A stretch of 37,211 nt of DNA from a virus. The notes under the pieces were generated by a model. That model made no database searches. It saw only the letters and a program-made list of their open reading frames with translations, and was not told where the DNA came from. Position numbers and translations under genes: made by a program. Below, in pieces: positions 1-37,211 of this stretch. The stretch covers positions 1 through 37,211 of the IMG/VR virus record IMGVR_UViG_3300031963_008792, one strand, 5' to 3'. The stretch's first letter is position 1, and each line of letters begins with the position of its first letter.

Positions 1-13
1 TGGTTATTATAAT

Positions 14-1342: not shown

Positions 1343-1372
1343 TTTTTATTTATATTCGTATACCATTTTAAC

Positions 1373-7678: not shown

Positions 7679-7682
7679 TATT

Positions 7683-9242: not shown

Positions 9243-9260
9243 AAGTAAATATAATATAAT

Positions 9261-11334: not shown

Positions 11335-11401
11335 ATGAGAAGAATACGAGGATTATCAAGTTGGTATACGGTAGCTGTTGATTTAACAACGCAAACTAAT
11401 T
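11335..11401 (+). repeat. 67 nt exact repeat, copy A (start of adhesin 1)
   Basis: The first 67 bases of the adhesin gene are identical to 12672-12738, beginning at the start codon. Downstream the two genes diverge quickly and upstream they are unrelated. This suggests a recent duplication or gene conversion limited to the beginning of the gene. Confidence 0.9.
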
Positions 11402-12122: not shown

Positions 12123-12130
12123 AATAAATA
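12123..12130 (+). promoter_or_regulatory. Late-promoter-like box AATAAATA before 12136 gene
   Basis: AATAAATA ends 5 nt before the ATG at 12136; an overlapping TATAAATA at 12129-12136 runs into the start codon. The sequence matches the T4-type late promoter (N/TATAAATA). At the usual late-promoter spacing, transcription from the first box would begin at the A of the ATG. Confidence 0.45.
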
Positions 12131-12135
12131 TAAAT

Positions 12136-12669
12136 ATGTTAAATAATATACAAACATCTGATATTACAGTAACTATAATAAGTGTAGATACAACAAATCA
12201 AACAGCAATGGTACAACCTTATTGCACTTTTTTTAAAAAACCATCATCAGAATATCAATATTACAATATAAGCTATTCTGATTTAGACCCAAGTAAAGAT
12301 TTAGCAACCCAATTGGCAACTAAATGTTATGGAGTAGTTAATGAAATTTATATAAGTGAAAACAATGATATACCATCAATAGAAAATTTATTAGTTGAAA
12401 ATATTAACAATTCATTTACAGCAAATGTAAGTTCAGCTATTACGCCGATAAACCAAACTATTTATGCTGTTCCAGATTCAACACCAGCAGGAACTCCGCT
12501 ATATTCATATCAAGCGGGACCAAATACTACTGTAATAACAACAATATCAAGTGGGTTGTTATTTAAAGATGGTACGTTTTTTGATCAAAATAATATTGAA
12601 GTATCTCCTTTATCCGGTGGTACTTTTTCAGGTGTTGCGTCAGGATATAATATTAATTTCATTTATTAA
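12136..12669 (+). CDS. Small adhesin-partner protein (copy 1)
   Basis: This 177-residue protein is related to the one at 13535-13909. Both begin with a strand-like segment, then PYxxxFKxP, a Tyr-rich or YQ motif, DLxxxxDxxxQLA, and a NINNxF/xxN segment. Each follows a glycine-rich adhesin gene, making a repeated two-gene unit. The C-terminal 60 residues of this copy are Ser/Thr/Gly-rich beta sequence and are absent from the shorter copy. A fibre chaperone, adhesin cap or lateral fibre partner would fit the position; none can be shown from sequence. An AATAAATA box lies 5 nt before its ATG. Confidence 0.6.
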   Translation: MLNNIQTSDITVTIISVDTTNQTAMVQPYCTFFKKPSSEYQYYNISYSDLDPSKDLATQLATKCYGVVNEIYISENNDIPSIENLLVENINNSFTANVSSAITPINQTIYAVPDSTPAGTPLYSYQAGPNTTVITTISSGLLFKDGTFFDQNNIEVSPLSGGTFSGVASGYNINFIY

Positions 12670-12671
12670 AA

Positions 12672-12738
12672 ATGAGAAGAATACGAGGATTATCAAGTTG
12701 GTATACGGTAGCTGTTGATTTAACAACGCAAACTAATT
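12672..12738 (+). repeat. 67 nt exact repeat, copy B (start of adhesin 2)
   Basis: Identical to 11335-11401 base for base, in the same reading frame. The copies are 1337 nt apart in direct orientation, so recombination between them would delete or duplicate one adhesin-plus-partner unit. Confidence 0.9.
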
Positions 12739-13526
12739 TTAACTTGTATACTCACTTGCAATCTAGAGGATGGTCTAATACGAGTAAAAAATTAAGAGTC
12801 TTTATAAATATACCTTCCGGAGTTTCTATATATTCAACAGATCCTACGTTACCCGCTTTTGTAATTCCAAATTCTTTTAGGTCATATGATATAATACAAA
12901 TAACTAATAATGGATCTATTTTAGGAGCAGGAGGATACGCTGGCGCTGGAGGTGGATCAACAGCAAATGGATCAGCTGGAGGTACTGGAGGATCAGCATT
13001 GCATATACAAAATACTATATGCAACAGTTTAAAAATAATAAACAACGGAAATATATATTCCGGGGGTGGCGGCGGCGGGGGAGGAGCCGGACATTACAGT
13101 TCATATTCATGTAACTGTTCAACAGGCTGTTTTGGTTCAACAAATTGTTGTTGTACGGATAGCAATAATATGGATGGTTGTCCTCCTGCATTTCCGGGAG
13201 ATCCTTGTTATAATAGTTGTTTATATGGTAGATGTACTGGACCTAGAACAACTAGTTGTAGCACATGTACCGATTCTGGAACTGGGGGAAGTGGAGGAAG
13301 CGGAAAAGGACACAACATTTCAGTATTAACTGGATTAGCAGCATCTGGAACTGGATCTGGAGCAGGAGGTGCTGGTGGTAATTATGGAGCAAACGGATCA
13401 TCTGGAACATCTTCAGCAACAAAAACTGGAGGTTCCGGGGGTCTAGCTGGTTATTATTTACAAAGATCTGCTTCAGCTTTATATGATTTAACCAGCAGTG
13501 GTTCTACTTTAGGAAGACTATTATAA
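12672..13526 (+). CDS. Glycine-rich Gp38-like tail-fibre adhesin (copy 2), 12-Cys insert
   Basis: The 284-residue protein is the tandem paralog of the adhesin at 11335. The first 22 residues are identical at protein level and the first 67 nt at DNA level, after which identity falls. It keeps the GWSNTSKKLR...IPSGV module, the NNGSILGAGGYAGAGG loop, an eight-glycine run, and further glycine-rich runs to the end. The insert between glycine runs (147-199) again has exactly 12 cysteines but a different length, spacing and sequence (including CCC at 159-161 and several prolines). The same glycine-rich framework with a different cysteine-rich insert fits an adhesin array with varied receptor specificity. 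It begins 2 nt after the first partner gene and is followed after 8 nt by the second partner. Confidence 0.75.
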   Translation: MRRIRGLSSWYTVAVDLTTQTNFNLYTHLQSRGWSNTSKKLRVFINIPSGVSIYSTDPTLPAFVIPNSFRSYDIIQITNNGSILGAGGYAGAGGGSTANGSAGGTGGSALHIQNTICNSLKIINNGNIYSGGGGGGGGAGHYSSYSCNCSTGCFGSTNCCCTDSNNMDGCPPAFPGDPCYNSCLYGRCTGPRTTSCSTCTDSGTGGSGGSGKGHNISVLTGLAASGTGSGAGGAGGNYGANGSSGTSSATKTGGSGGLAGYYLQRSASALYDLTSSGSTLGRLL

Positions 13527-13529
13527 ATA
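13522..13529 (+). promoter_or_regulatory. Late-promoter-like box TATAAATA before 13535 gene
   Basis: An exact T4-type late consensus TATAAATA ends 5 nt before the ATG at 13535, starting within the end of the adhesin 2 gene and covering its stop codon. Confidence 0.5.
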
Positions 13530-13534
13530 ATTAT

Positions 13535-13909
13535 ATGGAAGAACAAAATACAGAAATAAAAATCATAATACAAAATATTGAAAATGATGAAAGAATAATA
13601 TTTAAACCTTATTCAAATCTTTTCAAAAATCCAATAGAATCATATCAATCTTTTAGTTTTGATTTAGTAAATTTAAACCAAGAAGAAGATATTATATTAC
13701 AATTAGCAAAAGTTGCAAAACCAATAGTTGACAATATTCTTAAAAAAGAAAATTCTTCGTTTTCAGAACATTTAAATTTTTTAAAACAAAATATAAACAA
13801 CACGTTTAATATTCCTTATTCTTCTGTTAGTAATGTAGGGTTTAGTATTACAGAACCACAAACTAATACTCCAACTATAACATCATCAGAATTGAATTTT
13901 ATACTTTAA
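13535..13909 (+). CDS. Small adhesin-partner protein (copy 2)
   Basis: The 124-residue protein aligns with the N-terminal two thirds of the protein at 12136: PYSNLFKNPIESYQ, a leucine and DI-xxQLA segment, and an LNFLKQNINNTF stretch. It lacks the longer Ser/Thr-rich C-terminus. It sits immediately after the second glycine-rich adhesin, matching the first pair. No enzymatic or membrane features are visible. A TATAAATA box ends 5 nt before the ATG. I would call it an adhesin-associated virion or chaperone protein by repeated association only. Confidence 0.58.
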   Translation: MEEQNTEIKIIIQNIENDERIIFKPYSNLFKNPIESYQSFSFDLVNLNQEEDIILQLAKVAKPIVDNILKKENSSFSEHLNFLKQNINNTFNIPYSSVSNVGFSITEPQTNTPTITSSELNFIL

Positions 13910-13912
13910 TTT

Positions 13913-13920
13913 TATAAATA
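13913..13920 (+). promoter_or_regulatory. Late-promoter-like box TATAAATA before 13926 gene
   Basis: Exact TATAAATA in the 16 nt gap before the second CSC-family gene, ending 5 nt before its ATG. Confidence 0.55.
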
Positions 13921-13925
13921 TTATT

Positions 13926-14363
13926 ATGACAAAAGAATACTTATTGCAACATGGAAATTTAGGAGCAGTTTTTTTAGAACTTATTAAACCAAATTACGGA
14001 AGCGAGTTTAGAGAAAAATTCAAAACATTTGCAACCGTAATAGAAAATGATATTGAAAGCGCATCTGTTAATCCTTCTTGCTCTTGCGCACAAAGAGTAA
14101 GAGATTATGTAAATTTATATAAAAATAATTGTGTTGATTTTTTATTGTTAGATGCAGAAGAAACGAACAGACAAGATTTAATTGAAAAAATAGCAAAAGA
14201 TAACGAAGTTAAACCAATTCTTATTGATTACAGAGGTAAAGTAGCAAAAACTACAATGTCCGAATGGCCAAAGTTTTATGATACCATATCTAAAGAAAAT
14301 GGTGCTTTTAGAAATTTCTCTGTTGTAAAAGAAGGTGATGATGTTTACGTATTCTTTTTATAA
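13926..14363 (+). CDS. Small conserved virion-region protein, CSC family (copy 2)
   Basis: This 145-residue protein is homologous to the one at 7683-8105, sharing IESASVN...CSC and the C-terminal YRGKVAKTTMSEWPKF and EGDDVYVFFL blocks. The middle is diverged and has one more cysteine. The two copies bracket the fibre and adhesin genes between them. Function is unknown; a role linked to fibre attachment or assembly would explain why each copy sits beside a fibre gene. A TATAAATA box ends 5 nt before the start codon, and no Shine-Dalgarno sequence is seen. Confidence 0.65.
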   Translation: MTKEYLLQHGNLGAVFLELIKPNYGSEFREKFKTFATVIENDIESASVNPSCSCAQRVRDYVNLYKNNCVDFLLLDAEETNRQDLIEKIAKDNEVKPILIDYRGKVAKTTMSEWPKFYDTISKENGAFRNFSVVKEGDDVYVFFL

Positions 14364-14378
14364 AGATTAATATTTTAA

Positions 14379-14386
14379 TATAAATA
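14379..14386 (+). promoter_or_regulatory. Late-promoter-like box TATAAATA before beta-helix gene
   Basis: Exact TATAAATA in the 29 nt gap before the gene at 14393, 6 nt from its ATG. Confidence 0.55.
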
Positions 14387-14392
14387 TATATA

Positions 14393-16825
14393 ATGTCGGA
14401 TACAACAATTTCAGAATTACCGTTAGCTACGTACGCAACTCCAAGTGATGTTATTGCATTAGATCGCGGCGATAGAACATATAAACTTCAATTAAATTCT
14501 ATTAATGGATTTACGGGAGCTTATGTTGTTTATGTATCCCCAACTGGAAGCGACTTTTTTAATGTTGGAACTTCGTTAACATCTCCATTTAAAACAATAA
14601 AAAAAGCATTAAAATACATAAATGACAATCCAACATTTAATGGATATACTATACATTTAAATTCTGGAGAATATGTTGAAAAAAATCCATTACTTTTACC
14701 TAGAAAAACTACATTAGTAGGAGAAAATGAAAAAAGAGTAATAATAAGACCTGAAGATCCATATTATGACACAATATGGATAAATGATGGATGTTATGTA
14801 GGCGGAATAACATTTAAAGGAAATTTAAATCCATCAGCTGCCATAGCATACCCAAAATTTATAAGTCCAGATATAGATATTATAAACGTAACAGATGACG
14901 AATATATAAGAGCTTATTATGTTTTAGGGTTTGAGATGAATAGACCATCCGAAATACCATTTTTTCTAGTAGAACCTAAAGTAGAATGCGTTACTTTTAG
15001 TATAAATGCTTTAAAATCACCTATACAGATAAATGTAAATCAAGTTTTTGATTTTTCAAAAACCGCAACATCACAATCATATAATATGTTTGAAAAATTA
15101 TATGATAATTCGTTTTCTGTTATAAATTATGGTATTACCGGAACAAGAATGTTAGAACCATTCTCTCCGATGACTATACCAGCATTTCAAGAAGTAATAA
15201 GCTATCTACAAAACAAAAGAAGTTATTACGAAAATGAAGATGATATTTTTTCTATAAGACCATATGTTTTACAAAATTTTGGAATAGATGTATTTAGTCC
15301 ATCTTTAGAAAAGAATTTTTACCGTGACGTTAAAGTTATATTAAATTCTTTAATTTATGATATTTCCGCTAATTCAAATAGATTAATTTTAGAAGCTGGA
15401 AAGACATTTTATAATAATACATCAAGTTTAATGTTACCAAACGATAATAACATATCTACTAAACAAGCATTATTATCTACATTAGATTATATATACGGTG
15501 TTATTAAATATGAAGTTTTTGAAGATGTTCCGAATATATCGGGAACAATTCATTATTTTATTAATAACCAATTTGTTGATTTAAAAAATTATCTAAACGG
15601 GTCAACTGTTTTAGTTTCACCCGTAACATCATTATCTTCTTCATATATAAATAGTGCTTTATTACTTTCAAGTAATAGACAGTTTATTTTAGAAGAAGCT
15701 TATGCTTATGTACAAGAATCAGATTATGAAGTTTTACAAAAAACATATTTAGATGAATATAAAAAAGAAATGAATCTTATGATTGATTCTTTCATATTTG
15801 ATTTATCTTCCAACACAACAGCATCCACAACGCATTACTCAAATTTATTATTTAATAAAGTAAGCTCATCAAACATTCTAACGAAAGATCTAGTTTTAGA
15901 TACTTTTAAATATCTCGGAGATGTTTCTAAAAAAGTAATATTAAACTCTCCAGTATCTGGATTGTCATTAGATTGTGGTCATGCTATAAGAGTGGATGGC
16001 AATTTAGTAAAAGGATTATATAAAAGAACATTACATGTAAATGACTTTAATGCAATAGTAGAAGGAGGAAAAGGAATTTGGGTAAAAAATAACGGTAATG
16101 TAAATGCTAATAATGGATTATTTACGTGCTGTTCTCAAGGTATATTATGCGAAAGCGGAGGAAAATGTATATCTGATTCATGCACAAACATGTTTGGTTT
16201 ATCAGGACTTGTAGCTTTAGGTGTTTCACCAGTACCAGTTTTATCCGGTGTTACACTAGCTGAAGTTTATCCTTTATCAGCTGATTATGTAGATGTTACA
16301 AACTTAACAGAAACTATTATATATGAATTAACCGCTAATAACAATAGATTAGCAAAATCTCCATCTCAAGGAATGATTGTAGAGTTTTTAGTAAACAACA
16401 ATCCATTAAGTTCAATAAGATTACCTATTTTAGACCAACCGACTAAAATAACAGATTCTCAATATAGAATTAACTTACCAAAAAACATATTAGTTAATAT
16501 ACCAGCAAGCACAAAAACAAATTTCTATCTTAGAAGTACAATAACATCAGATTCTCATAATTTTGAATATGTTGGTTGTGGTATAGTTCTTAAAAAGTCT
16601 ATTCCGTCTTTAGGTGGAGTTACTAATAAAGATTTAGAAGTTTGCTACGATACAACTGAAGATTTTGCGTCTGGAATAGTATACTTCAATTCTGTCGATC
16701 AAAACGGAAATGTAAGTTTCGGTAAAAATTTTGTTATATCTCAAGATAATAATAGAATAGAAGGATATACTTTTGATAGATCAGTAATTTCGTTGTTTAC
16801 TCCATTCGCTATAGCAATGGAATAA
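14393..16825 (+). CDS. Virion protein with right-handed beta-helix domain and helical insertion
   Basis: Residues 1-42 carry the fibre N-terminal block ISELPLATYATPSDVIALDR followed by TYKLQLNSI. From about 45, YVSPTGSDFF and SPFKTIKKALKY mark the beginning of a pectate-lyase-like right-handed beta-helix, and the repeated short strands (HLNSGEY, TTLVGEN, CYVGGITFKG) are its rungs. Around residues 265-500 the pattern changes to long helices (SYLQNKRSYYENEDD and similar), then beta-helix style returns near 525-620 (IRVDGNLVKG, GIWVKNNGNVNANNG, GILCESGGKC). The last 200 residues are a Ser/Thr-rich beta region. Similar proteins occur in marine T4-like phages as structural proteins. Neither catalytic residues for polysaccharide cleavage nor a depolymerase motif can be identified. 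TATAAATA lies 6 nt before the start. Confidence 0.75.
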   Translation: MSDTTISELPLATYATPSDVIALDRGDRTYKLQLNSINGFTGAYVVYVSPTGSDFFNVGTSLTSPFKTIKKALKYINDNPTFNGYTIHLNSGEYVEKNPLLLPRKTTLVGENEKRVIIRPEDPYYDTIWINDGCYVGGITFKGNLNPSAAIAYPKFISPDIDIINVTDDEYIRAYYVLGFEMNRPSEIPFFLVEPKVECVTFSINALKSPIQINVNQVFDFSKTATSQSYNMFEKLYDNSFSVINYGITGTRMLEPFSPMTIPAFQEVISYLQNKRSYYENEDDIFSIRPYVLQNFGIDVFSPSLEKNFYRDVKVILNSLIYDISANSNRLILEAGKTFYNNTSSLMLPNDNNISTKQALLSTLDYIYGVIKYEVFEDVPNISGTIHYFINNQFVDLKNYLNGSTVLVSPVTSLSSSYINSALLLSSNRQFILEEAYAYVQESDYEVLQKTYLDEYKKEMNLMIDSFIFDLSSNTTASTTHYSNLLFNKVSSSNILTKDLVLDTFKYLGDVSKKVILNSPVSGLSLDCGHAIRVDGNLVKGLYKRTLHVNDFNAIVEGGKGIWVKNNGNVNANNGLFTCCSQGILCESGGKCISDSCTNMFGLSGLVALGVSPVPVLSGVTLAEVYPLSADYVDVTNLTETIIYELTANNNRLAKSPSQGMIVEFLVNNNPLSSIRLPILDQPTKITDSQYRINLPKNILVNIPASTKTNFYLRSTITSDSHNFEYVGCGIVLKKSIPSLGGVTNKDLEVCYDTTEDFASGIVYFNSVDQNGNVSFGKNFVISQDNNRIEGYTFDRSVISLFTPFAIAME

Positions 16826-16837
16826 ATATAATAAATA
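16821..16837 (+). promoter_or_regulatory. Two late-promoter-like boxes AATAAATA before 16841 gene
   Basis: AATAAATA occurs at 16821-16828 (12 nt before the ATG) and again at 16830-16837 (3 nt before it). Neither has the exact 5 nt spacing. One could drive the three genes from 16841. Confidence 0.4.
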
Positions 16838-16840
16838 ACC

Positions 16841-17182
16841 ATGAAAATACCACTTAATAATTTTAAAAGAGTTTCTGCGAAATTACAAACAACAGCAACT
16901 GCTGTTTATGTAGCTCCAGAGAAAAGAGCGTCTATAATATTATCCGCTATAGGAAGCAATTTAACATCACAAACTCAAACAATAACATTAGGTGTATCAG
17001 CATTAAATCAAACAAATAGCTATTACGATGTAATTAAAAATTTTCAAATTCCAAAATACGATGCTGCAAATTTAACGGTAGGAAAAATGGTTTTAGCTCA
17101 AGGAGACGTTTTAGTTGCTAGTTCTGTTAATACAGACTCCATAAATTTAACATTATCAATTTTAGAAACTGTTAACGAATAA
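16841..17182 (+). CDS. Small conserved virion structural protein
   Basis: The 113-residue protein is all beta-like, with NFKRVSAKLQTTATAVYVAP, ASIILSAIGSN and an SINLTLSILETVNE ending. This pattern (a strand, TxxxVYxxP, then an alpha-free sandwich) is familiar from small proteins encoded among T4-like marine phage structural genes, probably minor virion components. It has no membrane segments and no cysteine. It starts 15 nt after the beta-helix gene, with two overlapping AATAAATA boxes in that gap, and ends 3 nt before the next fibre gene, so it is likely cotranscribed with it. Confidence 0.65.
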   Translation: MKIPLNNFKRVSAKLQTTATAVYVAPEKRASIILSAIGSNLTSQTQTITLGVSALNQTNSYYDVIKNFQIPKYDAANLTVGKMVLAQGDVLVASSVNTDSINLTLSILETVNE

Positions 17183-17185
17183 CAT

Positions 17186-18346
17186 ATGTCAAAAGGAAAT
17201 AAAGCACAATTAGTTAGCGGAAGAATTTTAGTAAATTCTCCATTAAGTGCTTCGGATGATAGATATGAATTTTTGGGTTTAGCTGACGCTGAACCAAATT
17301 TAGGATTTCCTATTTCTTTAAATTCTGGGTTGACTGGAATTTATTTTTTACCAATATCAAATAACAAAGGTATAAGATCATGGTCTAGTGCTGAAAGTTT
17401 ATCATTATCCGGAAACAACATAAGCATAGGAACAACCGATTATAAAAACAAACTTACTGTATCGGGAAATATAAGTTCAATTTCTTTATCAACACCTACT
17501 ATAACATCAACTAATTTAATTGATATTAAAAATATAATATCAAATTATAATGGTGTTATACTCGCTGACAATTATAATGTTACAAATAATGGAAATAATA
17601 CATTAACAATAGATTTTTTATCAGGTGTTTATATAAACAATAATACATATATAAAAGGTAATTTAACAGTTTCCGATTTAATCAGCGCAAAAAATAATAT
17701 ATCCATTTATGGTGGATTAACAGCAAACGATAATGTAAGGTTTAAAAAAGATTTATTAGTAGATGGAAACTTATTTGTAATGGGTTCTTCCACTCAAATA
17801 AATACTACTAATTTGTATATAGATGATCCTATTATTTATATATCAAAAAACAATAATTTAAATTTAAATGATATAGGATTAGTCGGTTCTTTTAACAATG
17901 GAACTTATCAGTATACAGGCTTAACGAGAATAGCATCTGATAATAAATGGACTTTATTTAGTGGATTAACATCAGATCCTACTTCCACTACAAATATACA
18001 AACATCTGATCAAACGTTTAAATTAGACACATTAAGAGCTAATGTAGAATCTTCAACGATTTCTTCTAACGTTCTAAGCGCAAACCAATTTACCGCTAAT
18101 AATGCAATAATTACTAACAACTTAAGCGTAAGTGGAAATTTAGCAGTTAAAGGTGTAATAAATTCTCTTAATAACATTACAACCACTGGATCTGTTAACG
18201 TAAGTGGTTCCGCTGGAATAGGTGGAAATATTAACGTAATAGGATCTGCTAATGCTCTTTCTATGACTGTATCCACTAATTTATCCGGTTCTGGTTCTAG
18301 TGTATCAAGTATAAGAGGATTTAAAATTGATTGTGGAAGATATTGA
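17186..18346 (+). CDS. Tail-fibre protein with repeated SGN/beta shaft motifs
   Basis: The 386-residue protein is a fibre-shaft type: repeated short beta motifs (LSGNNISIGTT, VSGNISSISL, VSGNLAVKGVINS, NVSGSAGIGGNINV) form a typical triple-stranded shaft. A middle domain reads VDGNLFVMGSSTQINTTNLY followed by IDDPIIYIS and DIGLVGSF, the module widespread in marine phage fibres. The C-terminus ends abruptly with RGFKIDCGRY. The first 65 residues are unlike those of the other fibres and probably form its own attachment domain. It follows the 113-residue virion protein after 3 nt without a visible promoter of its own. Confidence 0.78.
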   Translation: MSKGNKAQLVSGRILVNSPLSASDDRYEFLGLADAEPNLGFPISLNSGLTGIYFLPISNNKGIRSWSSAESLSLSGNNISIGTTDYKNKLTVSGNISSISLSTPTITSTNLIDIKNIISNYNGVILADNYNVTNNGNNTLTIDFLSGVYINNNTYIKGNLTVSDLISAKNNISIYGGLTANDNVRFKKDLLVDGNLFVMGSSTQINTTNLYIDDPIIYISKNNNLNLNDIGLVGSFNNGTYQYTGLTRIASDNKWTLFSGLTSDPTSTTNIQTSDQTFKLDTLRANVESSTISSNVLSANQFTANNAIITNNLSVSGNLAVKGVINSLNNITTTGSVNVSGSAGIGGNINVIGSANALSMTVSTNLSGSGSSVSSIRGFKIDCGRY

Positions 18347-18354
18347 TATTTGAT

Positions 18355-18362
18355 TATAAATA
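18355..18362 (+). promoter_or_regulatory. Late-promoter-like box TATAAATA before 18368 gene
   Basis: Exact TATAAATA ending 5 nt before the GTG taken as the start of the 231-residue protein. The matching spacing supports that start. Confidence 0.52.
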
Positions 18363-18367
18363 TATAA

Positions 18368-19063
18368 GTGAGTGTTTATAATGATCAAATAAATGATGGA
18401 AGTTTTTGGCTGAGAAAAGTAAATGGTTCTATAGAATCATCTGTTGAGTCTTTATCTTCTATTTTTGAAAAATATAGAAATGTAAATTCTTATTTTTATA
18501 ACGATTTAATAAATAATAATATAAAAAATTTTGATGTTTTTTATGATGTTATTTTTATTGAAACAAATAATGGTTATATAATAGAAAAATTTTATATTGA
18601 TAATGATTACAAAGTTTATCCATATAATAATAATAATTTTTTCACCAGAGTAAAAAATACAACAACAAAATATTGGTTTGATGAAAAAAAATTAAAAGTA
18701 TATTTTGTAGATTTAGTGTTTGATGTCCAAGAAGTTGACTCTCTTCAATTTGTTTTCTTATTTAAAGAATTTGATTGTAAAACCGGTTTCTTATATTCTA
18801 GACTTCAAGAAAGATTTTATTTTAAATTTACATCTTCAACAGATTGGGGTAGAAAAATACCAGATGTTGAAACACCAGTAATAACATACAATAATAATAC
18901 TAATAAATTTAATGTTTCTTTTATATTTAGAAATAATACATACAATATAGCACTATTCAGTATAATGATAGAAGATATAAACCTATTTGAAGTTGTTAAA
19001 GTAGATAGTTTTATACCTTTTGCTAAAATAGATTACCAAAATTCTTATCACATATCCTTATAA
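18368..19063 (+). CDS. Hypothetical virion-region protein (231 aa), GTG start
   Basis: I do not recognise this protein. It is rich in aromatic residues and asparagine and appears largely beta (for example residues 60-75, 115-135 and 175-215), with a predicted helix near 20-40 (SIESSVESLSSIFEKY). No in-frame ATG lies near the N-terminus, so the start is taken as GTG at 18368, which sits 5 nt after a TATAAATA box just like the ATG of other genes here; this supports the choice. It lies between fibre genes and is probably structural. Confidence 0.55.
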   Translation: MSVYNDQINDGSFWLRKVNGSIESSVESLSSIFEKYRNVNSYFYNDLINNNIKNFDVFYDVIFIETNNGYIIEKFYIDNDYKVYPYNNNNFFTRVKNTTTKYWFDEKKLKVYFVDLVFDVQEVDSLQFVFLFKEFDCKTGFLYSRLQERFYFKFTSSTDWGRKIPDVETPVITYNNNTNKFNVSFIFRNNTYNIALFSIMIEDINLFEVVKVDSFIPFAKIDYQNSYHISL

Positions 19064-19074
19064 TAGTAAAAAAT

Positions 19075-19082
19075 AATAAATA
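19075..19082 (+). promoter_or_regulatory. Late-promoter-like box AATAAATA before 19090 gene
   Basis: AATAAATA in the 26 nt gap before the 1145-residue protein gene, 7 nt from its ATG. The five genes downstream (22524-25610) overlap or abut and have no box, so this may drive them all. Confidence 0.45.
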
Positions 19083-19089
19083 TTCATAA

Positions 19090-24145: not shown

Positions 24146-24146
24146 T

Positions 24147-24827: not shown

Positions 24828-24828
24828 T

Positions 24829-25173
24829 ATGTTTGCTTTATTTAATTTAGAAAATAAATTTATTGGTTTTGGAGATAATATACCAGATCAAACTAAAAGT
24901 TTTTTTAAAACTATAGAAGTTCCTGATCAGTATAAAGATTTCACAAAATACACATGGCATGGAAATTATAACGATGGAAAATTTATAGAAATTAAAGATA
25001 TAACATATGTAAAAACTTTAGAAGATAAGATAGAAAAAATAACAGAAAAATACTCCACACAAATTCAGTTGATAAATATAATTAAACAACTAAGTTTGTT
25101 GAGTAAAGATAAAAACCTTTATGATATTTCTTTTAAAGAAATGTCAAACGATATATTAAACATATGGAAATAG
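24829..25173 (+). CDS. Small protein, possible fibre-assembly helper
   Basis: The 114-residue protein has an N-terminal beta-like part (FALFNLENKFIGFGDNIPDQ, then YTWHGNYNDGKFIEI) and a C-terminal half that is a long, lysine-rich amphipathic helix (about 65-112). That layout, a beta domain plus coiled helix, is seen in several phage tail-fibre assembly chaperones, but no specific signature is present, so this is a weak suggestion. It starts 1 nt after the previous gene and overlaps the next by 10 nt. Confidence 0.5.
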   Translation: MFALFNLENKFIGFGDNIPDQTKSFFKTIEVPDQYKDFTKYTWHGNYNDGKFIEIKDITYVKTLEDKIEKITEKYSTQIQLINIIKQLSLLSKDKNLYDISFKEMSNDILNIWK

Positions 25174-25610
25174 AAATTATAAAAGTACAATCTAGCAATA
25201 ATACAATGCAATTTGCATGTTATTTGAATAATTTTTTATCTAATGTAAAACTATTACATTGGTATACTTTAAATATAAATCTACATGAGATTTTAGGAGA
25301 CACGTATTCTACTTTATCCGATTTATTTGATAAACTGCAAGAGGAAATAATTGGAGTTTCTAATGTAGAAAAAGTTAATGTTCCGTTCAATCAAAACAAT
25401 TTAAATCTTTTTGATGAATCTGTTTTATGTAATGATGAAACAATAGCTAAAAATTTTATAGTCATGGTTTCCGGATTTAAGGGAATATTAACAAGCCAAG
25501 ACTTTAAAAATTACACATCATCTATTAAATCTGGAATAAACAATACGGCAGAGGAAGTAATTTCAAATTTAAATAAATCTTTATACCTAATAGAGATGAT
25601 TAAATTATAA
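25164..25610 (+). CDS. Dps/ferritin-like phage protein
   Basis: The 148-residue protein seems all helical. Residues 31-64 contain LHWYTLNINLH, then DTYSTLSDLFDKLQEEIIG, the arrangement of Dps-type ferritin-like proteins: LHW, a second histidine on the same helix, and DxxxE (D56, E60) one turn from a second carboxylate. In Dps these residues form the intersubunit ferroxidase site. The H32 to H41 spacing is 9, shorter than the 12 usual in Dps, so metal binding may be altered. Phage homologs of this kind (I recall a DUF5856-like family) have no settled function. The second half lacks the standard Dps ending. It overlaps the preceding gene and ends 6 nt into the convergent giant gene. Confidence 0.55.
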   Translation: MEIEIIKVQSSNNTMQFACYLNNFLSNVKLLHWYTLNINLHEILGDTYSTLSDLFDKLQEEIIGVSNVEKVNVPFNQNNLNLFDESVLCNDETIAKNFIVMVSGFKGILTSQDFKNYTSSIKSGINNTAEEVISNLNKSLYLIEMIKL

Positions 25611-28600
25611 TATATTTTTATAATTCGATCTTATGTAAGAATACATATCATCTTTTTCTCTATTAGAGAATTTCTTATTATATAAAATTATTTCTGATAT
25701 TTCGCATCTAGATGCGAGAGATCCTAAAATATAGGAACCAGCCCACAATCCTTTTGTTGCATATATTCTATCTTCTTGCAATGGAGATTCGGATTTAGAA
25801 AATAAATTTCCGTCTATATATGAATAACACATAGAAGAATCAAATACTAATTCATACAAGTGAAATTTAGTAACATCAACATCAAAATCATCATTTTCTA
25901 ATTTTATTGAACTGTTTTGTGGTAATGAAATATTACCAAAAACAAATGATAATTTTCTATTTTCTTTTAATGCTATAGCTAAAGCTGCATCATCTAAAGT
26001 TTTTTGTAAATTATCACTTAAAACATCTCCGAAAGAAAGCATGACGTTTGTCTTTTCGTCTACGAAACCATTAAATCTAGCTAAAACAAATAATGTTAAA
26101 GTACTATGATTTATTTCATATGTATTTTTCATTACATCTAAAGCTTCATTATTATTAAATAATATTGATGAATTTTGATGATCAGAAGTTTGTTTAAATG
26201 TAGGTCTTCCAAAATATCTAATTAAATCTCTTTGTTTTTTAGATCCGTCTTTCCATAATTTAACCAAATCTCCATCTTGTGAAATTATATCATATTCTAA
26301 TGACGACGTTGCGTTTTGATATATTGATCCTGTTCTGGCTGAAAACCAGATATTCATTCCATCTATATCATTTGGTTTTTTAGGTTTATATAAACCATAA
26401 TCATTACCGAAAATATCGTTTCTCCAATTTTGAAGCTTACCTTTACCGACTAACAATTCGTTTTTTCTTTTTACGAAAGAATTTAATAGTAATTCTTTTC
26501 TAAATGTTAATGGATGTTCTGATGTACCATTCCAAATTGGAGGATTTTTTGGATTCCAGAATTCAAATTGATCATTCTGTCTAGATAATCCATAATCGTT
26601 TTTATTTTTTAATTCGTATGTGGATTGGTAAGGAGTCATTTTTTGATTTTCTGGTACGTTTATCATAACTCCAGCTTTTTCAGCACTACTATATGGTTCA
26701 TTCATCCAACTATTATCTATCTCATCAATTTTAGCTAATGATAATTGGTCTTTTTTGGTTAGTCCTCTTTGTCTAGGTCCGTATTTTTCTAAATCAAAAT
26801 ATGTACTTTCCGCGCTCAATCCTTTAAAGTAATTTATTTTACCATTATCGATTGACATCTTATATCCTTTTCCTCTATAAAAAGATGCTCCTAAATTCTC
26901 AGGTAAGAAATAATGACTTACTTCCTTTTCTGAAACTATATTATAAGGAAGAGGCATTGTAGCTACTGAAGGATTAAATGTATTAACCAAGCATTCTGTT
27001 GGGTTTGAAGGTTCAATTAAAACCGCTGTATTGTATACAACATAGGATTCCAAACATCTATTTTTGTTTAACAATCCTTGAGTGTAAGTAAATGCGTTTC
27101 TAGCATAATAGTTATAATAAGCTGGTTTAAATGTACTGTAGCTTTCTAAAACTAAATTACTTGCTTCCGGACTTGGTGTTACAACACCATCCAAATCTTG
27201 TTTAAATAAAACATCTTTAAGATTTGAGAATGTTTTTGAGAAAATCAATTTATTCCATCTACTTCCAGTTATTGTATTATATAAAGTTATATTTTGTTTC
27301 CATATTAAATCTTTTGGTATTTTTCTTACATATTCTATTAAATTTCCATTTTCAAAATATAAACTGGAAACGTCTGGTTGTTGTATAGGTAGATAATCAT
27401 CAACAAACTTTATTTTACCGCCAAAAGATATGGTATCTTTTCTAAAATTATCTGTTTCATTAGGTCTTACATTAACTTTAGCCCAGAATGGTCTTGCTCC
27501 ATAATCTTCACCTACGTAATCTGGAGAAAATTGATTAGCTTCATAACTCCAACCATCTAATTTTGAATTTATAGTAAATGATAACGTTGGAGTTGAAAAA
27601 TTTGTTTGAATGTTTTCGTTATTAAAATAAGAAACAGAAGATTTATGAATATAACTGATGTAATCACCGGGTCTTAACTGCATATCACTTACTTCTAAGT
27701 TTCCATAGTCGTCATATTTTGCATTCCATGTTCCGTATTCATCTCTCACTGCTTTATACCATACTGGTATTACAGGCATAGAACCAATTATTCTCATTGA
27801 GATATAATCAATAAAAGAATTTAAGTCTCCATCGCCATCTTTTAAGAATTTCTGTAAATTGAAATACATTGAAAATGTAGATGCGAATTTTTCCATAATG
27901 TCGCTTTCAATTGATTTGTAACCAATATCTACAGAATATATTTGTACAGCTTTTTTTAAATCTTTTATGAAATCTAATAATAAATTTGTTCCATTAACTA
28001 AATTTGATATTTGAGAATTATTAGAATTTGATTCTACTATTCTTTTTTTAGATTCTAAATTTTTTTGTTCAACTAATAAAACTCTTTCTAATATTGTTTT
28101 ATTGGTGTTTATATCTTCATATAAAACATCAAGAGATAATATCTCATCTAAAGGATCGTCATTTATTTCCTGTGTTATTTTTGATTGTATATTTAATAAG
28201 ATATTATCTATGTTATTTATTTGAGAATTTATTTTATTTAAATTCAAATTAACTTCACCGGTTTGTTGATTGTAAACTTTAGTTGAACTTTGAAATGAAG
28301 TGTTTTCGTAATTATACTGACTTGATTTTTGAACCAAAGCATTTTTTAAATTATTTAAAGTATTTGTAATTGAAGTTACTTGATTTTGTAAATAATCTAT
28401 TTTCTTTTTTAAAGAAACTGCTTTATTACGTTTTTTTGGTTTTAAATTATTATACGTAGTTAATAAAGAGTTTAATTCAGTTTTATTTGTATTTAAATTT
28501 GAATTATATGAATTTATTTGAGAATTATAAGAATTTAATTGACTTTTAAGATTTAAAACTTTTTCATTTGTTGGTATGTTTAAATTTCTTTGTTCTTTTT

Positions 28601-31600
28601 CGTATATTGATTTTTTAGATAAAAGTTCATTTTTATCTTCTTCCAATTTATTTTTTTGGGTTAATAGTTCATTTAAACTATTAGTTTCTTCTTCTAAAAT
28701 TTGTTGCTTTTCTTGAAGAACTGAACTTAAATTTATATTTAATTCTGAAATTTGATTTGTTAAATTTTTAATTTCTATTTCTTCAAATGGAATTTGAATT
28801 TTAGCTAAATCTGAGGTACTCAAAATGCTATCAATTTGAATAGTGTTTTCAACGCCATCACTAAATATCAATATTTTCTTTGGCTTATTTGTTTGAGGAG
28901 CATTTAAAATGTTATTTCCGGTTGCTAAATCTAAAATATAAAAATTCAATTTAGAACATAAATTTTTAACACCCGAAAATTCATCACTAGATGTGTTTTC
29001 TATTTTTGTTGTCAGTAAAGTTTCAGCCAACGTAAAGGCTCCTAATATATTTGTATTATAAAGATCTGGATCTGTAGGGGTTTGAAGTTGACTTACAAAA
29101 AGTTTAAGAGCATCTTTCTGGTTTGATAGGAAAGACAATCTATTTGCTACTGAATTAAATTCAACTAAACCTATTTGTATGTTAGAATTATTAGTTAATA
29201 GTTTATCAACTATTTTAATAACAGCATCTTTAGTGTTTTGCAATGTTAAAGATTGACTTCTACTATTATCAATTATTATAACCAAATCAAACCCATCTGT
29301 CGGTCCTAATAAACCAGTTATATTCTTGTAAGAATATTTAACTACAAAATAAGGAGTTTCTCCGGTTATTGTTCTTAATGGAGTTCTGTAATATGTATAT
29401 CTTCTTCCGGTTTTTAAAACCATTTTTTTACCATTTCCAGTTTTCCATTCTCCAGTACCCCACCCTACATTTGTATCTGATTTGTTGCTTCCATCTAATT
29501 TATAATATGAAAATTGAGGACTTTCAAATGCTGTATAACCTCTAGTATCAACCCAACTGTTTAAAGCAAAATCCACCCCTAATCCATCTGGATCTGCAAA
29601 CAAGTAATCCGCCATTCCATTATAATCAAATACATTATCTCCACTGTGACCAATAGGAGAGTAATTTACAGATTTACAATTACATTTTTGCCAATGTTTT
29701 AAATCATTAATAGGTTGATTGTTTTGGTAATCTTGATCGTTATAATAATTGTGTGGGAAATTTTTTAAATATGGACAAGATGGACTATGTTCAAAAAATT
29801 TAAATACTTCATCGGCATATGTATCTTCATCCATCCACACAAATGATATTTTTTCAGATGGTTTAACCATCATGGATAAAGAAGCCTGTATCGGACCATC
29901 TATATACTGAGCACAATTTACAGCATCGAAATCGTATATAGTTTTTGAATTTGCCATCATATCTAATCTTGATATTGATGGAGATCCAAGCCAAGCTGCT
30001 TCTGTTGGGTCTGAGTTTCTGGTGTTATATTTGTATATAACATCCGCAGTTGAGAAATTTAATCCAGCGATAGCACCTACCATTGATTTTGATATGTCAA
30101 AATCTCTTAAATATACGGGAAGACAAAATTTATTATTTACAGTTAAACTAATATTATTTTCATCTTCAAATGTTTGTAAAGGCCAATATATTTGATTTAA
30201 TCCTGTTTTAATCGGCAAGTCGGTTTTATCAAATTTATATAAATATGCTTGTTCTATTTCTCCCTGCTGTCCTTCTGAATATATTGATGAAGTAAAATAA
30301 TCCTTTGGTTTTTTTATGATATTGTCAGCAGTATCAGAAAAGGTATCCGCGTGAGAACCATATTCCACCAAAGAAGTATTATTTATATAAATTGGATCAC
30401 AAGATGAAGTTGGTAAAGATGATGTAAAATAATCTGATAATATTTTTTCTCTAATTTTTGGTTCTAAAATGTTTAACAAATTATTATCAGTATCGTCAAC
30501 TAAATATCCTAAAAAACCATTTGTTTTATTTGAAAAATCTATACCCGGATATGGAAAAATAAATTCTTTTTTCTCGCCTGTTTTGACCGTCAAAGTCATT
30601 TTAATCTTTTCTGGATCTGTCTTATGCTCTCCTCTAAGCCATGCTCCCTCAACAACTCCATTTTTATCAGTAAAAATTAAATCTGAATTAGTATAATCAT
30701 CTCCAGCAGTAGCTCCAGAAGTAACAAAACTAGATTCGTTTATGGGTATTTCAGAGTATATGTTATTAAACTTTGAGTCGTCCAGCATTTGAGAACCACT
30801 TGGCCAATAAAACCAGTTATTTCCACTATTAAAATCTAAAGTTAGATAGTTATCAAAAACGTCTAAATCTTTTAACTTTATGGCAGTCAATCCATATAAC
30901 GGTTGACTCATGTACCTTTTAGATGCTTCTATTTGATTATATATATTTAAAACGCTTTGATTGAATAAATCTTCGGATGTTAAATTTGGTACATCGTTGT
31001 TTAAAAAATTAACAAATGTATTAGATAAAAAAGAATTAGATATTTTTGTTAGATATCTAGTAGATAATAGTTTTAAAATTTCTTCATCAGTAAGATCCTC
31101 AAATTGTTTTGAAAATATTTTTTCTGATATTCTTTCAACCTCAACATAACTTTCTAATGGAACACTACTATCCGAACCTAAATAAGAATTTTTATCGTGT
31201 AATTCTTCTATTTCTATATAGAATTTATTTTTGACAGAAGAAAGCTCTGGAAAATAACTTGAAAATTTAGAAGCAGGAACTTGTGATATATTATTTTCTG
31301 TTTTTGTAAATCCTTTTAAAATGTATTCATATAACATTTTTTCAAGACCAGAATTGGATCCTATTAAGTTATATTTTAATTTTGCTTGTTTTACAGATTC
31401 TCTTTTCTTTGAAAATACTATAGCTACTTGTTTTAATTTTTTTGCAAAGAAAGGAATAGTAAATATCAATTCTTCATCATTTGACGTATCTAATTGAGAT
31501 AAAAAAGAATCAAATTCTGTACTACCAAATAAAAAACTTAAATCTTTTAATAATTCTATATATTGTTGTTTAAAAGTTTTTTTAATTTCAGAATTTACTT

Positions 31601-31733
31601 TTGATTTTTCTAAATACCATTTTTTTAAATAATTTAAATACTCGCTCTGTTGCTTTTCTGGCAATAAAGTGTTTTGATAAGATAACCACTTGTTATAATC
31701 TAGTGGTTTTTTATTTTCTATATCACTGTTCAT
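25605..31733 (-). CDS. Giant virion protein (2042 aa): split vWA domain, coiled coil, C-terminal LamG
   Basis: Residues about 1-260 are largely helical and charged. After a long unknown middle, a von Willebrand factor A domain begins near 815: DLVIIIDNSRSQS has the MIDAS DxSxS (D822, S824, S826), IQIGLVEFN follows, and ILIFSDGVEN (SDG, D959) marks a later core strand. Then about 275 residues (980-1255) are a continuous coiled coil rich in Gln, Asn, Lys and Leu, after which AVQIYSVDIG (about 1262-1271) supplies the last vWA strand. The C-terminus (about 1795-2042) is a LamG-like domain (FSARTGS, YSYIDGNLFSK, EISEIILYNKKFS). vWA and LamG both suggest surface adhesion. It is the last gene of the minus-strand unit, 2 nt after the fibre-like gene. 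Confidence 0.75.
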   Translation of the reverse strand: MNSDIENKKPLDYNKWLSYQNTLLPEKQQSEYLNYLKKWYLEKSKVNSEIKKTFKQQYIELLKDLSFLFGSTEFDSFLSQLDTSNDEELIFTIPFFAKKLKQVAIVFSKKRESVKQAKLKYNLIGSNSGLEKMLYEYILKGFTKTENNISQVPASKFSSYFPELSSVKNKFYIEIEELHDKNSYLGSDSSVPLESYVEVERISEKIFSKQFEDLTDEEILKLLSTRYLTKISNSFLSNTFVNFLNNDVPNLTSEDLFNQSVLNIYNQIEASKRYMSQPLYGLTAIKLKDLDVFDNYLTLDFNSGNNWFYWPSGSQMLDDSKFNNIYSEIPINESSFVTSGATAGDDYTNSDLIFTDKNGVVEGAWLRGEHKTDPEKIKMTLTVKTGEKKEFIFPYPGIDFSNKTNGFLGYLVDDTDNNLLNILEPKIREKILSDYFTSSLPTSSCDPIYINNTSLVEYGSHADTFSDTADNIIKKPKDYFTSSIYSEGQQGEIEQAYLYKFDKTDLPIKTGLNQIYWPLQTFEDENNISLTVNNKFCLPVYLRDFDISKSMVGAIAGLNFSTADVIYKYNTRNSDPTEAAWLGSPSISRLDMMANSKTIYDFDAVNCAQYIDGPIQASLSMMVKPSEKISFVWMDEDTYADEVFKFFEHSPSCPYLKNFPHNYYNDQDYQNNQPINDLKHWQKCNCKSVNYSPIGHSGDNVFDYNGMADYLFADPDGLGVDFALNSWVDTRGYTAFESPQFSYYKLDGSNKSDTNVGWGTGEWKTGNGKKMVLKTGRRYTYYRTPLRTITGETPYFVVKYSYKNITGLLGPTDGFDLVIIIDNSRSQSLTLQNTKDAVIKIVDKLLTNNSNIQIGLVEFNSVANRLSFLSNQKDALKLFVSQLQTPTDPDLYNTNILGAFTLAETLLTTKIENTSSDEFSGVKNLCSKLNFYILDLATGNNILNAPQTNKPKKILIFSDGVENTIQIDSILSTSDLAKIQIPFEEIEIKNLTNQISELNINLSSVLQEKQQILEEETNSLNELLTQKNKLEEDKNELLSKKSIYEKEQRNLNIPTNEKVLNLKSQLNSYNSQINSYNSNLNTNKTELNSLLTTYNNLKPKKRNKAVSLKKKIDYLQNQVTSITNTLNNLKNALVQKSSQYNYENTSFQSSTKVYNQQTGEVNLNLNKINSQINNIDNILLNIQSKITQEINDDPLDEILSLDVLYEDINTNKTILERVLLVEQKNLESKKRIVESNSNNSQISNLVNGTNLLLDFIKDLKKAVQIYSVDIGYKSIESDIMEKFASTFSMYFNLQKFLKDGDGDLNSFIDYISMRIIGSMPVIPVWYKAVRDEYGTWNAKYDDYGNLEVSDMQLRPGDYISYIHKSSVSYFNNENIQTNFSTPTLSFTINSKLDGWSYEANQFSPDYVGEDYGARPFWAKVNVRPNETDNFRKDTISFGGKIKFVDDYLPIQQPDVSSLYFENGNLIEYVRKIPKDLIWKQNITLYNTITGSRWNKLIFSKTFSNLKDVLFKQDLDGVVTPSPEASNLVLESYSTFKPAYYNYYARNAFTYTQGLLNKNRCLESYVVYNTAVLIEPSNPTECLVNTFNPSVATMPLPYNIVSEKEVSHYFLPENLGASFYRGKGYKMSIDNGKINYFKGLSAESTYFDLEKYGPRQRGLTKKDQLSLAKIDEIDNSWMNEPYSSAEKAGVMINVPENQKMTPYQSTYELKNKNDYGLSRQNDQFEFWNPKNPPIWNGTSEHPLTFRKELLLNSFVKRKNELLVGKGKLQNWRNDIFGNDYGLYKPKKPNDIDGMNIWFSARTGSIYQNATSSLEYDIISQDGDLVKLWKDGSKKQRDLIRYFGRPTFKQTSDHQNSSILFNNNEALDVMKNTYEINHSTLTLFVLARFNGFVDEKTNVMLSFGDVLSDNLQKTLDDAALAIALKENRKLSFVFGNISLPQNSSIKLENDDFDVDVTKFHLYELVFDSSMCYSYIDGNLFSKSESPLQEDRIYATKGLWAGSYILGSLASRCEISEIILYNKKFSNREKDDMYSYIRSNYKNIL

Positions 31734-31735
31734 TT

Positions 31736-32566
31736 TTAAGGTAAAACTAATGCGTTTATGTGCGATACTGATACTGTTTTGTTTTGGGCTAAAGCATTAA
31801 ACGATCTATTTATGTAAGATTCTCCAGCATTCATAGAAGAAACTCCAACTACATATGTTATAATTCCGGAATAATTTGGAGTATCTAAAAACGAAAGTGG
31901 TACAATTTTAGGGTTATTTAAATCTGTAGAACCACCATCAAACATACAAGATGCGTAACCAGACGGAATTGATGATAATGGAGATATTACAGAAAAATTA
32001 CTTTGATTTGTTGTTTTTCTATATATATTAATTGCAGCATCTTGAGAATTTATAGATAAAAACCCATTTATCATAACTTTAGCAGAACTTGTTGGGCATA
32101 ATATAGTAGCACTTAAATTAGTTACAAAATTAAAAATATTTTTAGGTATTACTTGAATATCTGTTTTAGTTGCCGATGAAGAAAAGTCTTTACCAAAATC
32201 ATTTAGCTTATATCCTGTTATTGTATTATCTTTTATTTTTGGTCCTGTTATCGATGAATTTTGATATTTATTTGTCGATATGGAGTTGTCTTGTAATCTT
32301 AAAGTAATTGTATTATTTGTGTTTGTTGCTGATAATCCATCAACAGCAGTCAAAGTATTAAAATATAAATTTTGATTTTGATAATTATTATATAAAGATA
32401 AACCAGAACCTAAATTTATCCCTCCCTTTACAGCACTAAAGGTTCTAAAAAAACTTGATGTTTTAATTTTATTAGTAGAATTTGAAGTGGTTAAAAACAT
32501 ATAACCATCAGAAGGTATTTCTGTTATTTCCGGTAAATCTGTTACTTTTATTCCTTGGGTTGCCAT
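31736..32566 (-). CDS. Fibre-like virion protein (276 aa)
   Basis: The N-terminus IKVTDLPEITEIPSDGYMFL, with TNKIKTSSFFRTF after it, matches the attachment-type block of the proteins at 9261 and 14393. A middle part (about 85-115) has the repeated LQDNSISTNKYQNSSITGPK and then DNTITGYKL motifs, a short-strand shaft pattern known from phage fibres. The last 140 residues form a beta domain of unknown type. It begins on the minus strand 5 nt after an AATAAATA box and is followed 2 nt later by the 2042-residue gene, so the two are probably one unit. It could be a short fibre or a connector to the vWA protein. Confidence 0.68.
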   Translation of the reverse strand: MATQGIKVTDLPEITEIPSDGYMFLTTSNSTNKIKTSSFFRTFSAVKGGINLGSGLSLYNNYQNQNLYFNTLTAVDGLSATNTNNTITLRLQDNSISTNKYQNSSITGPKIKDNTITGYKLNDFGKDFSSSATKTDIQVIPKNIFNFVTNLSATILCPTSSAKVMINGFLSINSQDAAINIYRKTTNQSNFSVISPLSSIPSGYASCMFDGGSTDLNNPKIVPLSFLDTPNYSGIITYVVGVSSMNAGESYINRSFNALAQNKTVSVSHINALVLP

Positions 32567-32571
32567 AGTAT

Positions 32572-32579
32572 TATTTATT
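32572..32579 (-). promoter_or_regulatory. Late-promoter-like box AATAAATA (minus) before 32566 gene
   Basis: Read on the minus strand, AATAAATA ends 5 nt before the ATG of the 276-residue fibre-like protein and overlaps the stop codon of the 88-residue gene. Confidence 0.45.
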
Positions 32580-32844
32580 AAATTTGTATGTAATATGTAA
32601 CATTTGACGAATTCACATTTACGTTTACTAATAACAATATAACGTTTAATTCGTCGCTTTCCTGAGTTATTAGAGCGTTTCCTGTATTTTCTTCTAATAA
32701 TTCTTGTATGTTAGATTTTTGATAGCTTATTTCTTCTTCTATGTTACAATCTTTTTCGTTGTCTGGTGTGTATATAGGAAAGTATCCTTTTATAGTTTTC
32801 GTTCCTTTTATATAAGAATTGAAAATTTTAATATTTGTTGCCAT
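32578..32844 (-). CDS. Small hypothetical virion-region protein (88 aa)
   Basis: This 88-residue protein is not recognised. It has a strand-like beginning (TNIKIFNSYIKGTKTIKGYF), an acidic helix (NEKDCNIEEEISYQKSNIQE) and a final beta hairpin (LNVILLLVNVNVNSSNVTYY). An in-frame TTG precedes the ATG by one codon; the ATG (first base at 32844) is preferred because the AATAAATA box then lies 6 nt upstream, as at other genes. It is the first gene of the minus-strand unit and shares the short 47 nt divergent gap with the gene at 32892. Confidence 0.55.
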   Translation of the reverse strand: MATNIKIFNSYIKGTKTIKGYFPIYTPDNEKDCNIEEEISYQKSNIQELLEENTGNALITQESDELNVILLLVNVNVNSSNVTYYIQI

Positions 32845-32850
32845 CAAGAA

Positions 32851-32858
32851 TATTTATT
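32851..32858 (-). promoter_or_regulatory. Late-promoter-like box AATAAATA (minus) in divergent gap
   Basis: In the 47 nt gap between divergent genes, AATAAATA on the minus strand lies 6 nt before the ATG at 32844. No comparable plus-strand box precedes the gene at 32892. Confidence 0.48.
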
Positions 32859-34221: not shown

Positions 34222-34240
34222 AAATGAGTAAATATTGATT

Positions 34241-37211
<2,971 letters not shown>

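Follow-up and report, generated by a model that had tools for sequence, protein, structure and literature searches.

Late-promoter-like boxes directly before start codons in a group of T4-like phages point to leaderless or nearly leaderless late mRNAs

Late transcription in phage T4 is a textbook system in which the promoter boxes stand well upstream of start codons that carry a Shine-Dalgarno (SD) sequence. In a stretch of viral DNA of 37,211 nucleotides (nt), taken from IMG/VR record IMGVR_UViG_3300031963_008792 and referred to here as the window, boxes resembling those of T4 end only a few nt before many start codons, and the question is whether these are late promoters set so close to their genes that the mRNA would begin at the start codon, elements of translation, or products of chance. 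A first-pass annotation of the window had proposed leaderless late mRNAs, with an A/T-rich translation-start element as the alternative. Having followed the boxes through relatives of this virus, we regard it as very probable, on the strength of sequence comparison, that they are T4-type, gp55-dependent late promoters placed at start codons and giving leaderless or nearly leaderless late mRNAs; positional enrichment, the presence of gp55, and a split between late and early genes make this the best reading.

Boxes at a fixed distance from the start codon

All nine starts to which the first-pass annotation had assigned boxes do carry them at the spacings given (the gap being the number of nt between the end of the box and the start codon). 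On the plus strand, TATAAATA stands at gap 5 before ATG 13535 (box at 13522..13529), ATG 13926 (13913..13920), and GTG 18368 (18355..18362) and at gap 6 before ATG 14393 (14379..14386), and AATAAATA at gap 5 before ATG 12136 (12123..12130) and gap 7 before ATG 19090 (19075..19082); on the minus strand, AATAAATA is found at gap 5 before ATG 32566 (32572..32579) and gap 6 before ATG 32844 (32851..32858). The ninth start, ATG 16841 on the plus strand, is preceded by two copies of AATAAATA, one at gap 12 (16821..16828), whose leader would be ~7 nt, and one at gap 3 (16830..16837), which is too close for T4 geometry at that ATG. Three plus-strand starts can be added to those annotated: TAAATA (34229..34234) lies at gap 6 before ATG 34241, an in-frame start behind TTG 34235, and the variant TAAGTA lies at gap 5 before ATG 33652 (33641..33646) and ATG 34708 (34697..34702), the last having TATAAATA as a second box at gap 14 (34686-34693, plus strand). 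TAAATA at 9246..9251 (plus strand, gap 9 to ATG 9261) is a weaker candidate. In relatives, TAAGTA peaks at the same position, and the two forms were counted together as TAARTA (R = A/G).

The number of boxes is unremarkable: TATAAATA occurs 16 times in the window versus 17.6 expected from shuffled sequence, so position is the whole argument, as the first-pass annotation, aware of chance boxes, had already held. The same count is what can be said for an explanation by chance, namely that A/T-rich intergenic DNA yields a box at many places, from which the good ones were picked. Position is enriched, with TAARTA at gaps 4-8 before 12 of 35 window starts (shuffle mean, 1.44), a figure reached in 0 of 20,000 shuffles of the letters of each 30-nt upstream. 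Ten of these 12 starts fall among the 16 that are preceded by 5 nt or more of intergenic space; the other two are 33652, with 4 nt, and 2511, which overlaps its neighbor and whose box is probably a chance match. SD-like 4-mers 5-18 nt before the start were present at a single start (5614, of an overlapping gene), in keeping with the earlier remark that no SD is evident.

The window corresponds to bases 7700-44910 of the 71,110-base record G001 at 99.997% identity and therefore belongs to the same virus. Its 2042-amino-acid (aa) protein (25605-31733, minus strand) has relatives at 32 loci in viral contigs of up to 248 kb, out of which 11 contigs were analyzed, and gave no match in named phages; it carries a von Willebrand A domain and, among three window proteins used as queries against viral contigs, had the widest distribution. 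Counts were pooled over nine contigs (G001, the window's own virus, with G004, G007, G009, G010, G011, G012, G016, and G018; 1498 genes with usable upstreams), leaving out the window itself, being of the same virus as G001, and G006, which is 99.995% identical to part of G012. G004 was analyzed over 100,000 of its 106,787 bases and G018 over 60,000 of 62,125, and G013, a more distant relative, was analyzed separately from the pool. Genes in the nine contigs, G013, and T4 came from our own greedy open reading frame (ORF) caller, which prefers ATG, and deposited gene starts were used for HTVC008M, S-SSM5, RM378, Melnitz, and Mosig.

The contigs have a GC content of 28-35%, and 23 of 40 T4 proteins have a phmmer match in some contig (17 of 40 have none), with homologues of gp23, gp20, gp17, gp18, gp21, gp43, gp44, gp41, UvsX, gp46/47, and gp55; judged by such sequence matches, the relatives analyzed are phages of the T4 superfamily. 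T4 matches in G001 are limited to gp6, gp21, gp23, gp25, and gp44. The group is large, with gp23 relatives encoded in 279 stretches of viral contigs, and among named phages the G012 gp23 is matched best by cyanophages, at ~35% identity. As a side observation, the terminase large subunit gp17 of G012 is matched by two separate ORFs with another ORF between them (68313-72021), for which an intein or a homing insertion is our guess.

Throughout this set the box keeps its place. Over the nine contigs, TAARTA ends at gaps 5, 6, and 7 in 65, 93, and 59 cases, against 10 cases at gap 4 and a background of 0-5 per position at gaps 25-49; its reverse complement, TAYTTA, has a flat profile, and ATRAAT, the same word reversed, is most frequent at gaps 6-8 (29, 38, and 25) because ATAAAT belongs to the box. 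The octamers most over-represented 5-7 nt before starts are NTAARTAT variants, and the box is of the T4 type, 8 bp long and TATAAATA-like, widened in the relatives to NNTAARTA. Every one of the nine contigs, and G013, beats all 200 of its own shuffles, so the positional enrichment named beforehand as a check extends well beyond the window. Under the identical gene caller, T4 has TAARTA at gaps 4-8 in 0 of 247 genes. In the cultured Pelagibacter phage HTVC008M, annotated independently, 12 TAAATA boxes stand at exactly gap 5 before deposited starts; together with the positional shuffles and the nine contigs, this refutes chance, to which we give a negligible probability. The claim that genes overlapping their upstream neighbor lack the box also survived, in the form that it is rare there: near boxes precede 226 of 857 genes where the intergenic space is 8 nt or more, 22 of 254 where it is 0-7 nt, and 12 of 387 overlapping genes.

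Promoter or translation element

If the boxes are late promoters, late transcription genes should accompany them, and the search for gp55, gp33, and gp45 that had been named beforehand succeeded in part, in relatives only: gp55 was found, a gp45-like protein was found by predicted fold, and gp33 was not found. All six contigs with gp43 or gp17 homologues (G006, G007, G009, G011, G012, and G013) encode gp55, next to homologues of uvsW and gp47, and the G012 copy matches phrog_234, late sigma transcription factor (E 6.1e-26); no gp55 match was obtained in the 37-kb window or in the 71-kb G001, neither of which covers that region. Profiles of gp45 from T4, HTVC008M, and S-SSM5 found none in the contigs by sequence. 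The same six contigs as have gp55 encode a conserved protein of ~250 aa that is a candidate sliding clamp: the predicted structure of the G009 copy (mean pLDDT, 86) has PCNAs as its best PDB matches (best E 1.5e-13). Such a clamp, if the model is right, would act in transcription at the late boxes together with gp55.

The boxes also sort by gene class. Among genes with T4 homologues, whose early or late class we assigned after T4 (with uvsW counted as early), the late box stands at gaps 4-8 before 25 of the 70 late genes and none of the 43 early ones, as T4-type late boxes should. A sigma70-type pair at gaps 4-12 shows the reverse distribution (10 of the 43 early genes and 1 of the 70 late ones), and the early genes of several relatives appear to share the start-codon design with this other promoter. 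Over the nine contigs, TTGAC begins 34 nt before the start codon 16 times, 35 nt before it 33 times, and 36-38 nt before it 31 times, and 55 TTGAC-N15..18-TAnnnT pairs fall at gaps 5-8, with 33 at gap 6; in sigma70 geometry, gap 6 puts +1 on the start codon. The next best of the 60 permutations of TTGAC gave 13 (CTTGA, an overlapping word), and the median was 1. These 55 pairs are divided among G007 (16, five of which are near-identical repeats), G012 (12), G010 (10), G011 (8), G004 (5), G016 (3), and G009 (1), with none in G001 and G018, and the design is clear in G004, G007, G010, G011, and G012 and present, in few cases, in G016.

These results bear on the alternative that the motif is no promoter and instead an A/T-rich translation-start element, substituting for the ribosome-binding site in a host without SD-based initiation. 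According to PMC5397173, genes lacking SD in several phyla have A/T-rich signals around -10. The scarcity of SD in these phages also speaks for it: in seven of the nine contigs, counted in six sets, SD was at the background level or close to it. By set, SD-like 4-mers were at or near background in G001 (3 of 65 starts versus 4 in the control stretch), G004 with G010, G007, G009, and G011 and about double the background in G012. As leaderless mRNAs would have it, SD is likewise all but absent before the starts in question (1 of 35 in the window and 12 of 240 near-box genes of the nine contigs), gp23 excepted. SD-like starts are frequent in T4 (124 of 247) and in G013 (151 of 345). A translation element should also serve genes internal to operons, whereas overlapping genes rarely have the box; none of the early T4-homologous genes has a near box, and the box matches the published T4 late consensus.

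Boxes that lie farther away also bear on this choice. Within the nine contigs, genes with near and far boxes do not differ in SD (12 of 240 versus 1 of 66, P = 0.31), as expected because SD is scarce there. In G013, SD accompanies 4 of 16 near boxes and 23 of 27 boxes lying 13-35 nt away (P = 1.8e-4), and in HTVC008M, whose boxes also lie at both distances, 2 of 17 near and 9 of 9 far boxes (P = 1.8e-5); the few SDs at near boxes (four in G013 and two in HTVC008M) are, by eye, mostly upstream of the box. The commonest distance from far box to SD in G013 is 5 nt (11 of 38 boxes), a spacing that is also the most frequent one between near boxes and start codons in this phage. A translation element working at a fixed distance would behave otherwise. 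Start-tied sigma70 sites, the class split, and far boxes with SD therefore favor a promoter, and the translation-start element, which the first-pass annotation had kept in reserve, is in our judgment improbable.

Start site, leader length, and genes that do not fit

According to PMC2988020, the TATA box of the T4 late promoter spans 8 bp, begins at -13, and lies about one turn of the helix upstream of the transcription start. It then ends at -6, so that with a gap of 5 the A of ATG is +1, and gaps 6-8 would correspond to leaders of 1-3 nt. Applied to genes with at least 8 nt of intergenic space, taking the box nearest gap 5, this geometry predicts leaders of 0, 1, 2, and 3 nt in 61, 85, 45, and 30 cases (leaders of 0-3 nt not being separable from each other by sequence) and of 4 nt in 33 cases, with a tail to 15 nt and 10 boxes too close to the start. 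We propose that host RNA polymerase carrying the phage sigma factor gp55 would read the -10-like box NNTAARTA as a T4-type late promoter, so set that transcription would begin with the first base of the start codon or a few bases earlier. Because of that placement the late mRNAs would lack a leader or carry one of about 0-3 nt, and translation would start by recognition of a 5'-terminal AUG or GUG and not by SD pairing.

A related possibility is that these are late promoters with a short true leader of about 3-15 nt, translated in some other SD-free way, for instance through unstructured A/T-rich 5' ends. The modal gap of 6, the tail to 15, and boxes at gaps 9-21 before gp18, gp19, and gp20 are what one would expect of it; the sharp rise from gap 4 (10) to gap 5 (65) would be expected if transcripts begin at the start codon or just before it, and the sigma70-type sites peak at gap 6, which by the sigma70 geometry given above is a leader of zero. 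We consider short leaders unlikely as the general rule, while noting that the two explanations overlap, since genes may differ, and our confidences in them accordingly do not sum to one.

Several observations weigh against leaderless late mRNAs from T4-type promoters and are best taken together. Gaps spread over 5-9 with a tail to about 15, and many leaders may therefore be 1-10 nt long. WATAAATA-like words are also in excess farther upstream, at gaps 10-35 (TATAAATA, 15 versus 6.9 expected; GATAAATA, 20 versus 2.8). Neither promoter type is near the start of 44 of the 70 late T4-homologous genes (nor of 33 early ones). SD-like starts in G012 number 27 of 260, versus 12 in the control stretch. 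A stricter count in G013 put the box-to-SD distance at 5 nt in 3 and at 6 nt in 4 of 21, and in HTVC008M this distance is not fixed. The early design is absent or weak in G001 (71 kb, the window's virus), G009, and G018, and the TTGAC-TAnnnT pairs of HTVC008M (10 pairs, gaps 7-31) are not tied to the start codon, for which reason this phage was dropped as a further case of early promoters of that kind. Searches of the contigs with T4 gp33 and with a profile of T4 and HTVC008M found no gp33; the protein is small and divergent, and its absence is therefore weak evidence. Inspection by eye did not reveal the T4 clamp-binding motif at the C-termini of gp55.

The major exception is gp23, which was taken up as a test case for near boxes and turned out to have a conserved leader with an SD-like stretch. 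Of the 279 loci, 80 were kept; 9 of these had no start codon at the match and were removed, and upstreams identical in the last 45 nt were counted once, leaving 44 distinct sequences. An SD-like 4-mer is present in 29 of these 44, CCATAGGAG exactly in 15, and CCATA in 32, whereas 2 have TAARTA at gaps 5-7 and 6 have it at gaps 4-8. In G001, the gp23 gene, outside the window, has AGGAGG upstream. Together with several copies of gp18, gp19, and gp20, whose boxes are at gaps 9-21, gp23 does not fit a strictly leaderless design. By eye, many of 24 aligned gp23 leaders show a possible hairpin, in which GAGAAG faces CTTCTC-like letters.

Some features of the window stand apart from these questions. 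Its first part (1-8000) holds tightly packed genes, including those for a radical SAM/SPASM protein, a DegT-type aminotransferase, a GT8 glycosyltransferase, and a PIG-L deacetylase, and has no near box save the one at 2511 that is probably due to chance. Paired glycine-rich, tail-fiber-like proteins with nearly identical N-termini are encoded at 11335-12114 and 12672-13526, neither gene with a near box, and two small proteins sharing an IESASVN stretch at 7683-8105 and 13926-14363, with a near box only at 13926. A collagen-like repeat protein begins at 34708; the window stops within its repeats at 37211, and G001 continues.

Hosts, significance, and comparison with known systems

The hosts of these phages were sought in several ways. 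A cyanobacterial host was set aside when psbA was found in 0 of 10 records, and the motif TA..TTTG, which we take to be that of Bacteroidota-type promoters, was not in excess (33 forward versus 38 reverse) and was rejected as a host sign. No gp23 relative appeared in GTDB contigs with the two peptide patterns tried. The nrdA of G012 had one match, in a Candidatus Pacebacteria metagenome-assembled genome (59% in the best segment), and Pacebacteria were not taken as the host; gp23 was not found in that assembly, an empty search that shows little. A phage-encoded IF3 was found in 0 of 9 records. Ribosomal protein S21-like genes occur in 2 of 9 phage records (G009 134233-134376 and G011 9618-9755, both on the minus strand), which is therefore no general explanation; HTVC008M and Mosig are also annotated with S21.

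If our reading is right, the same sigma-factor system as in T4 here feeds a different mode of translation initiation, and leaderless mRNAs must be translated efficiently enough for virions to be built. Gene starts in many uncultured T4-like contigs could then be called by a simple rule, and there would be a clue to the hosts of these phages. More broadly, and with less assurance, we lean toward the view that a widespread lytic T4-like group draws much of its early and late expression from leaderless mRNAs, with both promoter types welded to the start codon, and that phages of the T4 superfamily may switch between this arrangement and a leader of the form box, short spacer, SD, start codon by gain or loss of an SD module, the promoter remaining unchanged.

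In single leaderless cases known from phages, such as lambda cI, as in the leaderless mRNAs of bacteria, the promoter is so spaced that +1 is the start codon, and in this the group studied here would be alike. It differs from them in that the arrangement appears to be the common design of a lytic phage group with its own sigma factor. Leaderless mRNAs of bacteria are treated in PMC5397173 for mycobacteria and Deinococcus-Thermus, and the AR9 paper states that phage transcripts are often leaderless (PMC5312081). The late promoter of phiKZ, TATG, has its last base as the start site according to PMC4666361, and is like the present boxes in being a phage late promoter right at the transcript start, but it is used by a phage-encoded multisubunit RNA polymerase and lacks a -10-type box. 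No title among the matches listed in open PMC, outside of which subscription papers mostly lie, concerned leaderless late mRNAs of T4-like phages, and in PMC2704228 and PMC7892664 the word "leaderless" occurs in reference lists only.

Nearer relatives use the same box in different ways. The late promoter of T4-like cyanophages is given as NATAAATA in PMC2984593, a box identical in sequence to that of this group; elsewhere, late promoters were searched for by TATAAAT (PMC3037559). The cyanophage S-SSM5 differs in placement, with TAAATA at gaps 4-8 before 0 of 61 genes of a 50-kb stretch, one at gap 3, and the rest at 19-44. The near design was not seen in RM378 either, where one TAARTA stands at gap 6 before 61 genes (50-kb stretch). 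HTVC008M is like this group in its 12 boxes exactly 5 nt before deposited starts and differs in having, in addition, boxes accompanied by SD leaders and in carrying SD-like sites before 102 of 197 genes. By gp55, the phages next related to HTVC008M are Melnitz, with 1 near and 11 far boxes before 63 genes, and Mosig, with 1 near and 8 far boxes before 62 genes (50-kb stretches); with one near box each and near/far SD differences that are not significant (P = 0.44 for Mosig and 0.25 for Melnitz), these two were not taken as further support. Melnitz is credited with 15 late promoters in PMC9004378, and prediction of late promoters in pelagimyophages is reported as unsuccessful in PMC7029224. HTVC008M and Mosig (EXVC030M) are phages of the same strain, Ca. 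Pelagibacter ubique HTCC1062, and have 17 near boxes in 197 genes versus 1 in 62, and they would make a cultured pair for comparing both designs.

T4 itself shares with this group the box (TATAAATA/NATAAATA), gp55, the sliding-clamp fold, and the presence of boxes at late genes. It has 36 TAAATA no more than 45 nt from a start, of which 21 are at gaps 21-29 and none at 4-8 (three are at gaps 1-3 and one at gap 9), and SD is present at 20 of 22 genes with far WATAAATA boxes. In the group described here, unlike T4, the box is mostly 5-8 nt before the start, SD is scarce, TAAGTA is also used, and gp33 was not found. T4-type late promoters placed at the start codon would be a variant of a known system, and one that can be tested in a cultured phage.

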